From the IMG/VR virus record IMGVR_UViG_3300006923_000008, positions 1-64,000 of that record: 64,000 nt of DNA; one strand, 5' to 3'. Each line of letters starts with the position of its first letter. The stretch's first letter is position 1. This document shows, piece by piece, positions 4,918 to 6,821 of this stretch. The notes beneath the pieces were generated by a model, which searched no databases, had not been told where the DNA came from, and was given only the letters and a program-made list of their open reading frames with translations. The translations under genes were made by a program, and so were the position numbers. Source of the stretch: a virus.

Positions 4918-4943
4918 ACCAAAATCAAAAAGGAGAATTCAGC

Positions 4944-5974
4944 ATGATCGATAAGGCAGATATTGTCGTCGGTTTATGCTGGGGTTGACCTTCGGGTCAA
5001 TCTCAACATAAAAAGGTGACGAAGCAAAAGGAAAGATTACTGCACATCTGGCGAGTAGTGGCAACTATGATGTTGTGGCAAGATGGGCAGGGGGTAATAA
5101 CGCAGGACACACCGTATGGGTCGATGGAGAAAAGTATAAAACTCACTTAATTCCATCTGGTGTATTTTATGGAGTAACTTCTGTTATTGGCCCTGGGTGC
5201 ATCTTGCATCCAAGCTCCTTTGAAGAAGAGGTTTCTTACTTGGATAAAAATGGATTTGATACTACGCTGATCAAGGTTTCTCCAAAATGTCATATCGTAA
5301 CTGATTCTCAAATAGCCTATGATAAGGAGCATTTGGCTCCAAGGCTTGGAACTACGGGCAGGGGAATAGCCCCTTGCTATGCGGATAAAGCGGCTAGAAT
5401 TGGAATCTTGGCAAAAGATGTATTGGATCCGAAATATATTTGGGATGAGAAGTTAGAGGGAAGGCTTTTGTGTGAAGGAGCGCAGGGCGTTTGGCTTGAT
5501 ATTGATCATGGCCTTTATCCTTATGTAACTTCTTCTATCACCCTGCCTTATGGCGCTTGCTCTCTGGGGTTTCCGCCTCAGAGGGTTAATGCGATTTGGG
5601 GCGCTGCAAAGATATATGATACGAAGTCTGGGGAAGATCCGAGATTTCCAAGCAGTTTGCTTGAAGATAAGGACTTGTCTGTAATCGCTAAAATGGGAGA
5701 AGAGTTTGGAGTAACGACAGGAAGGCCAAGAAAGGTTAATTGGCTGAATCTCGACTATCTGGTTAAGGCAGTTAATCTTACGGGAACAACTAATTTAGTT
5801 ATTAGCAAGTGTGATATCTTAAAAGAGTTTGGAAAGTTTAAGCTTATTCATGAAGGTCTAATTCGATCCTTCTCAAGCTTAAACATTATGTGTGATTTTA
5901 TAACAGAAGTGATAAACGCTAATTGTATTTTAATTGAGGATATTGTGTATTCTTATTCCCCGAAGGAAGTGTAG
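4944..5974 (+). CDS. purA: Adenylosuccinate synthetase (PurA/PurZ family), interrupted by a 32-nt segment
   Basis: The family joins aspartate to IMP (PurA), or to dGMP in the phage PurZ branch, using GTP. The gene starts at ATG 4944 after AAGGAG and reads MIDKADIVVGLCWG, then hits TGA at 4986. Reading resumes at 5018 with DEAKGKITAHLA. Joined, this restores the family motif WGDE-KGK with no residue missing or added, giving 332 residues. Catalytic Asp15 and His45 (NNAGHT) are present, as are GAQGVWLDIDHG, YPYVTSS and TTGRPR. Phage PurZ enzymes usually lack that Asp, so PurA or an intermediate (PurZ0-like) type fits better. The length is near archaeal PurA and PurZ and well below the about 430 of bacterial PurA. 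See 4983-5017 for the likely bypass element. The DHH gene follows directly. Confidence 0.85.
4983..5017 (+). other. Candidate translational bypass element in purA
   Basis: The proposed take-off codon is GGT (4983-4985), followed at once by TGA (4986-4988). The landing codon is GGT (5015-5017), and translation resumes at GAC 5018 in another frame (32 bases skipped). A stem TTGACC/GGTCAA (4985-4990 with 4995-5000) is closed by the tetraloop TTCG. Including G-U pairs it extends to 11 bp (4980-4990 with 4995-5005), so the take-off codon lies within the stem. Matched Gly codons, an immediate stop and a UUCG-capped hairpin are the features known from T4 gene 60. Whether the ribosome truly hops here is inference. 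Confidence 0.7.
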
Positions 5975-5975
5975 A

Positions 5976-6821
5976 GTGTCAAGAGTAACGGTTCTTTATC
6001 ATGCCGGCTGTCCAGATGGCTTCGGCGCAGCGTGGGCTTTTTATCAGAAGTATGGAGCGAAAGCTAAATATGTTCCGGTTCGTCATAGCGACGAGCCTCC
6101 GGTGGTCACTGGACGCGATGTATTTATTGTTGACTTTTGTTATCCTAGGGCTATATTGGAAGAGTTAGAAGAGGAAGCGAACACGCTAACGGTCATTGAC
6201 CACCATAAGACTTCCCAAGAAAGCTGCGGAGATTTGGAGTATTGCCATTTCGATATGAGCCAATCTGGAGCAGTTTTGGCATGGAAGTTTCTCTTTAAAA
6301 GAAAGCCTGTCCCACCTCTTCTTAGGTATATTCAAGACAGAGACTTGTGGACTTGGGAGCTAGATAAGGCCGAAGAGGTATTGTCTGTAGTTGATTCGCA
6401 TAAAAAAAGCTTTTCCGAATGGAACCGCTTGAGCCTGGAGCTTGGGGAGCCGTGCTCTCCAGCGTGGAGCAAGGTTGTTTCTGCTGGAGGGGATATTCTC
6501 AGGTACAAAGAAACTCTGGTGAAGATGATGCTCTCAAATGTTCATCGTCTAAATATTGCAGGGGAAAATGTTCCTGCAGTAAACTCTTCGTCTTTTCAAT
6601 CGGAAATAGGAAACATTCTATGTGAAGATGAAGAATTTGCTGCGGTGTACTACTTCGACGGAGAAAAATTTAGGTTTTCATTAAGGTCAAAGGAGAATAG
6701 GATGGATGTGTCTACTATAGCTCTGGAGTTTGGTGGCGGAGGTCACAAGAATGCTGCGGGTTTTTTTGTAAAAAATATGAATGAACTAGAAACGGAAGGT
6801 GATAGATGCTGTGAGCAATAG
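5976..6821 (+). CDS. DHH-family phosphoesterase
   Basis: This 281-residue protein has the DHH superfamily signature. HAGCPDGFGAAWAF is near residue 9 and IVDF near 47. DHHKT is near 70, GGGGHKNAAGF is near the C terminus (DHHA1-type substrate loop), and YIQDRDLW lies in the middle. Family members are manganese-dependent hydrolases of short oligonucleotides, cyclic dinucleotides or related phosphoesters (nanoRNase, GdpP, RecJ). Substrate cannot be assigned. Start GTG 5976 was chosen because GAAGGA lies six bases upstream and the longer frame reads back into the synthetase gene. It sits directly behind purA and could recycle nucleotides or act on a signalling nucleotide. Confidence 0.85.
   Translation: MSRVTVLYHAGCPDGFGAAWAFYQKYGAKAKYVPVRHSDEPPVVTGRDVFIVDFCYPRAILEELEEEANTLTVIDHHKTSQESCGDLEYCHFDMSQSGAVLAWKFLFKRKPVPPLLRYIQDRDLWTWELDKAEEVLSVVDSHKKSFSEWNRLSLELGEPCSPAWSKVVSAGGDILRYKETLVKMMLSNVHRLNIAGENVPAVNSSSFQSEIGNILCEDEEFAAVYYFDGEKFRFSLRSKENRMDVSTIALEFGGGGHKNAAGFFVKNMNELETEGDRCCEQ

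Follow-up and report, generated by a model that had tools for sequence, protein, structure and literature searches.

The adenylosuccinate synthetase gene (purA) of a group of phages is interrupted by a short insert that, in our assessment, very likely signals programmed translational bypassing as in T4 gene 60, and that probably shields the DNA encoding the P-loop from a homing endonuclease. Ribosomes very probably jump over the insert; gene 60 is the single phage example for which such a jump is well proven. This reading, proposed for one gene in an initial annotation, gained support from the comparison of seven phage lineages and from a 5' stem-loop restricted to the genes that carry the insert.

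A 32-nt insert splits the P-loop of a phage purA gene

The window (the whole 64,000-nt stretch analysed) is part of a 106-kb phage record that matches the 211-kb record G001 except at one position; G001, a second record of the same virus, carries the identical element. The reading frame of purA starts with ATG at 4944 and comprises 14 codons (MIDKADIVVGLCWG), the last two being TGG (4980–4982) and GGT (4983–4985), after which TGA (4986–4988) follows. The insert of 32 nt changes the frame. Past a second GGT (5015–5017), the frame GACGAAGCAAAAGGAAAG (DEAKGK...) opens at 5018 and extends over 318 codons to 5974. The initial annotation had described the positions, stop, hairpin and frame change of this element accurately in every detail.

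Features of the window (positions, strand):
4930..4935, +, Shine–Dalgarno-like AAGGAG of purA, seen in the sequence
4939..4982, +, 5' stem-loop with a 9-bp outer stem (4939–4947/4974–4982) and a 5-bp inner stem (4948–4952/4968–4972)
4944..4985, +, first coding block of purA, 14 codons, MIDKADIVVGLCWG, homologous to the N-terminal part of ~30 uninserted relatives
4980..5005, +, take-off stem-loop of up to 11 bp with a UUCG loop (4991–4994), from folding
4983..4985, +, putative take-off codon GGU (Gly12 equivalent), GGT in 7/7 insert lineages
4986..5017, +, proposed bypassed segment, 32 nt; same site in 7 lineages, lengths 12–32
4986..4988, +, UGA stop directly 3' of the take-off codon; a stop in 7/7 lineages, UAA in the 12/13-nt forms
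5006..5014, +, A-rich spacer ACAUAAAAA, seen in the sequence; shorter or missing in other lineages
5015..5017, +, putative landing triplet GGU; RGY in all insert lineages
5018..5974, +, second coding block of purA, 318 codons and stop, from the catalytic Asp13 (PF00709, 1ade alignment, purifying selection)

The 318-aa downstream frame is an adenylosuccinate synthetase (PF00709, E = 4e-77) and also aligns with solved PurA chains. It is nearer to PurA than to PurZ models, though under the NCBIfam cut-offs; the PF00709 match and the catalytic residues together identify it as PurA. The first residue of this frame, D, corresponds to residue 13 of E. coli PurA, at which the alignment to 1ade starts. 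In E. coli PurA numbering, the break thus lies between the equivalents of Gly12 and Asp13, the latter having an established catalytic role. The insert is a non-coding gap inside one protein frame, both sides of which are needed. Directly downstream of purA (5979–6818) lies a DHH/DHHA1 phosphoesterase gene, which is syntenic in most relatives, insert or not.

Seven phage lineages carry inserts at one codon junction

In viral_contigs, 18 loci were retrieved by a scan using the downstream protein and 47 by a profile scan; the junction was read in each. In seven lineages an insert was found at one and the same codon junction, flanked throughout by TGG GGT on the 5' side and GAY GAA GCA on the 3' side; ~30 other relatives from these scans had no insert there.

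Inserts by record:
Window and G001, 32 nt, TGACCTTCGGGTCAATCTCAACATAAAAAGGT
L002, 30 nt, TGACCTTCGGGTCAATCTCAATATAAAAGC
L011, 29 nt, TGACCCTTCGGGGTTAACAACAACAAAGC
L008 and L018, 13 nt, TAACTACCCCGGC
L003 and L017, 12 nt, TAAAACCCCAGT
L067 and L089, 12 nt, TAAACCCCAGGC

The seven lengths (32, 30, 29, 13, 13, 12 and 12 nt) are 0, 1 and 2 modulo 3, so that all three frames are represented and the gap is not tied to any of them. In all seven lineages the insert begins with a stop codon, directly after GGU, UGA and UAA being interchangeable, and ends with RGY, directly before the resume codon. The RGY triplet is GGU or GGC in four lineages and AGC or AGU in three. The matched GGT codons emphasized in the initial annotation thus hold for the window and are not general. 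The codon ahead of the insert is GGT in 7/7 insert lineages vs 7/32 uninserted relatives (Fisher p = 0.0002). In sum, the segment has a fixed position and a retained stop, its length and frame vary, and the protein downstream is conserved, a pattern that favours bypassing.

A pattern built from the upstream side alone recovered from viral_contigs exactly the nine known insert records and none else. Broader stop and residue patterns revealed no further case in viral_contigs. A stop-containing pattern gave 14 matches in genome_contigs as candidates for cellular purA with an insert, all of them false. The relatives in INPHARED are ≤39% identical and uninformative on the insert.

In the gene tree, five of the seven carrier types group together (88/80), the other two having no resolved placement, and a single origin of the insert was not rejected (AU p = 0.21). 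Upstream of purA, L003, L008 and L018 have a common leader, in which an inverted repeat precedes the Shine–Dalgarno site AGGAGGTG. L067 has the AGGAGGTGCTTNATGTCC start in common with them though its gene branches elsewhere, which suggests that the 5' cassette may have been exchanged.

Two covarying stem-loops surround the take-off codon

The take-off hairpin of the window has a 6-bp core (4985–4990/4995–5000) that G–U pairs extend to 11 bp (4980–4990/4995–5005). The element folds at −15.2 kcal/mol, and 0/500 shuffles were as stable. A hairpin lies over the take-off codon in all insert lineages, with 0–2/500 shuffles as stable. The long forms fold as GUUGACC-UUCG-GGUCAAU, continued through the GGU codon; both arms differ in L011 (GUUGACCC/GGGUUAAC). 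In the short forms UGGGGU is paired with ACCCCA or ACCCCG, and the stop UAA is in the loop. The landing triplet is directly 3' of the hairpin in the short forms and beyond the A-rich spacer in the long forms. The UUCG-capped stem first noticed in the window (6 bp, 11 bp with G–U pairs, overlapping the take-off codon) is where it had been placed, and relatives keep a hairpin there by different sequences. A search for copies of the UUCG hairpin elsewhere gave a sole match, which was due to chance and lay in an unrelated coding region.

A second hairpin had been missed. It spans 44 nt from close to the start codon, and its 3' arm reaches the base adjoining the take-off GGU. When the upstream side was folded, the same outer stem was obtained in 7/7 carriers vs 0/32 relatives lacking the insert. 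In the ungapped alignment A3, the seven lineages form 95.9% of the pair cells of the 14-bp stem-loop, vs 15–47% with the arms slid. The covariation score was 0.51 with 13 double-change cells, values reached by 0/500 shuffles, seven lineages being a small set for covariation. The arms are CCAAGCUAA/UUAGCUUGG in L008, CCAGGUUAG/UUAGCCUGG in L003 and UCAGCAUGA/UUAUGCUGG in the window. Eight or nine of the outer nine pairs are formed in carriers vs at most seven (mostly five) in uninserted relatives. Only carriers have invariant codons at −5, −4 and 0, namely GGT, TTA and GGT (Fisher p = 0.0003, 0.0006 and 0.0002), which is explained by the needs of the 5' stem. Tested against synonymous recoding, the per-sequence z-scores reached significance on their own in just the window virus and L067; the case for this stem-loop is built on conservation, restriction to carriers and covariation. 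The amino acids ahead of the site are identical in carriers and their nearest non-carriers, which places the signal in the RNA and not in the peptide.

Selection on the enzyme and alternatives to bypassing

Between insert carriers, the part of purA after the insert shows dN of 0.19–0.34 and dS from 1.2 to saturated, mostly saturated. DEAKGK and the other catalytic residues are invariant in this purA family. Purifying selection on the enzyme downstream of the insert is strong. Since the protein has stayed conserved over long evolution in the presence of the insert, full-length PurA should be made from the insert-bearing genes. The insert lengths of 0, 1 and 2 modulo 3 indicate machinery indifferent to frame, and inserts in all three frames at the same site leave only a mechanism that ignores frame.

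The main rival is a tiny intron cut from the mRNA by an endonuclease and an RNA ligase. An insert that disregards frame and has hairpins at its flanks could also be excised at the RNA level, and RNA ligases are encoded in two of the seven contigs (G002 and G007). We consider this explanation improbable. Inserts of 12 nt are far below any intron that we know, and no known intron core or splicing enzyme was recognized for these inserts of only 12–32 nt. The cut sites would fall inside the take-off stem, and no bulge–helix–bulge is apparent. RtcB was not found in the seven contigs, nor was a PF09414/PF09511 ligase in G001, G004, G005 and G009; splicing is unlikely because RtcB is absent and RNA ligases are patchy. 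Furthermore, an intron does not predict that the insert opens with UGA or UAA and closes with RGY in 7/7 lineages.

It is considerably less probable that the gene yields two products, a short peptide ending at the stop and the rest made by restart downstream (a split gene or a regulatory stop). GTG at 5075 and like codons downstream in some lineages could serve a restart, but there is no conserved start codon with a Shine–Dalgarno sequence after the insert. Restart would also drop the catalytic Asp13 and the P-loop, yet DEAKGK and the catalytic residues are invariant and under purifying selection. We give even less credence to readthrough of the stop, plus frameshifting where needed, which would yield a protein with 4–10 extra residues. 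The 12- and 30-nt inserts are in frame, but the 13-, 29- and 32-nt forms are not, the window and L011 inserts hold another stop in the final frame, and the extra residues would sit within a P-loop that is invariant in this family. Finally, sequencing or assembly error or a decaying gene, which the initial annotation had kept as alternatives, would account for a broken frame and nothing more, and is excluded by same-site inserts in seven diverged lineages, by low dN against saturated dS and by the recurrence of the same insert in G000/G001, in G008/G009 as separate records and in G003/G004 as different genomes (29 of 1155 bases around purA differ).

Proposed mechanism

Bypassing could proceed as follows. 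Ribosomes would make 14–17 residues and halt on the Gly codon GGU, the A site being filled by the stop codon embedded in the hairpin. Peptidyl-tRNA-Gly would then release and the mRNA slide by 12–32 nt. The mRNA may be pulled one way as the take-off hairpin forms and as the 5' stem-loop, behind the ribosome, closes its outer bases. By this geometry, the inner 5-bp stem would sit close to the mRNA exit, ~11–15 nt 5' of the P-site codon, and the outer nine pairs could close only once the mRNA has moved. The tRNA would re-pair with the RGY triplet just ahead of GAY, and decoding would restart at Asp13 to give intact PurA.

The AGC and AGU landing triplets in three of the seven lineages have a first-position mismatch to tRNA-Gly(GCC), which counts against bypassing. 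For gene 60, minimal re-pairing is reportedly enough for resumption (Herr et al. 2004, cited in PMC3014915).

A phage-encoded tRNA-Gly(GCC) was considered as an explanation and rejected, since it was found only in G007 and G001 is without a tRNA-Gly. G007 (L161–L165) is a 332-kb phage with the 29-nt insert and has >20 tRNA genes, including tRNA-Gly(GCC) and a CUA-anticodon tRNA called tRNA-Pyl. A tmRNA with the tag ANNNYHYNSVALAA is present in G005 (L130:12650-13026), a phage with a 13-nt insert.

Comparison with T4 gene 60 and other bypassing systems

In the published model for T4 gene 60, the A site holds the stop codon together with a small hairpin, EF-G drives release, and 5' structures arising behind the ribosome set the direction (PMC11194080, PMC5009743). 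As a control, the purA folding procedure was applied to the T4 gene 60 region. This gave GGA, TAGCCTTCGGGCTA and an upstream stem-loop, that is, the same layout as in purA, and bears out the likeness first pointed out for the window. Both genes have a Gly take-off codon, a stop right after it, a UUCG-capped stem-loop over it (UUCG in the long purA forms), a 5' stem-loop upstream and a landing triplet directly ahead of the resume codon.

The two also differ. The gap is 50 nt in gene 60 and 12–32 nt in purA, the take-off codon is GGA vs GGU, and take-off follows 46 codons vs 14–17. The purA landing triplet is often non-identical to the take-off codon, and the purA 5' stem-loop abuts that codon, unlike in gene 60. 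Because only 14–17 codons precede take-off, purA has no KKYK-type nascent peptide, and no signal is found 25–30 residues before take-off. Such a signal, on which gene 60 also depends, is a stimulator of that gene and lies outside the general definition of bypassing. In purA, the peptidyl-tRNA must then, if the hop occurs, be held by something else. Whereas the T4 case has been described as apparently unique to T4 (PMC3014915), the purA insert is found in seven lineages of a metabolic gene.

The mobile bypassing elements (byps) of Magnusiomyces capitatus mitochondria resemble the purA inserts as short inserts of protein genes skipped in translation with imperfect landing codons tolerated (PMC5009743). 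There are 81 byps in many genes, whereas the purA insert occupies one site in one gene; purA also has a dedicated upstream stem-loop and bacterial-type ribosomes, unlike byps. By description, two more cases are comparable. The terminase of Streptomyces phage Hau3, a candidate for bypassing, is also a phage gene with a short gap and Trp-Gly codons just before the site (PMC5009743), but the gene is a different one and its key codon is UUA, not a stop. The adhesin gene of Prevotella loescheii has a reported 29-nt hop, similar in length to those of purA (PMC5009743). No report of bypassing in purA was found in open PubMed Central papers.

A homing endonuclease gene beside purA

In L018, the gene just upstream of purA and in opposite orientation encodes a homing endonuclease (phrog_3339, E = 1.3e-16; L018:2011-2859, minus strand) with DUF7487 and a weak TnsA-like match. 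Its sister L008 has an internally deleted remnant at the same place (L008:2779-2862, minus strand; 28 aa at 82% identity, 95 nt aligned). phrog_3339 occurs in 6/18 contigs, 6/10 insert-bearing and 0/8 uninserted, the contigs being incomplete and of different sizes. It is mostly far from purA. That the endonuclease gene neighbours purA in a single lineage, and a remnant of it in one more, counts against the proposed explanation.

Gene 60, like purA in one lineage, has an endonuclease gene as neighbour, the defective mobA (PMC3014915), and protection against cleavage has been put forward as the role of the gene 60 insert (PMC5009743). By analogy, the purA insert interrupts highly conserved P-loop DNA and so likely protects it from a homing endonuclease; the same protective origin as for gene 60 is plausible. 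More tentatively, bypass elements may have arisen repeatedly in phages as a device wherever conserved active-site sequences come under attack by a homing endonuclease. purA might then be a conserved and compact version, with a hop down to 12 nt achieved by RNA structure alone, no long nascent-peptide signal and tRNA-Gly landing on AGC or AGU.

Bypassing has been studied for decades almost wholly on one phage gene. A natural family with seven variants, hops of 12–32 nt and phylogenetic covariation would reveal the essential parts of the signal. Test constructs could be much shorter, bypassing would be seen to proceed without a long nascent peptide, and the endonuclease-protection idea for bypass inserts would become testable. 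The purA case also illustrates that gene finders can miss intact phage enzymes.

Screens for other interrupted phage genes

A second copy of the purA element was not found in phages by screens that can miss coding blocks of less than ~25 aa. A split-alignment screen for other interrupted phage genes gave five candidates, none convincing, and the hits of a second screen, for displaced N-termini, were mostly antisense frames and differences in start site; both are blind to blocks of less than ~25 aa. purA itself was only a weak hit in the interrupted-gene screens.

A conserved phage protein of ~200 aa has an in-frame UAA in G004 (L125 minus strand, offset ~16350) and G003 (L227:13429-14228) where G001 reads on (SLTER*NKKIEDAKL vs AVTEKQRKKVEDARL). 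Conservation continues past the stop in the two genomes, and readthrough, a split gene or a recent nonsense mutation are possible.
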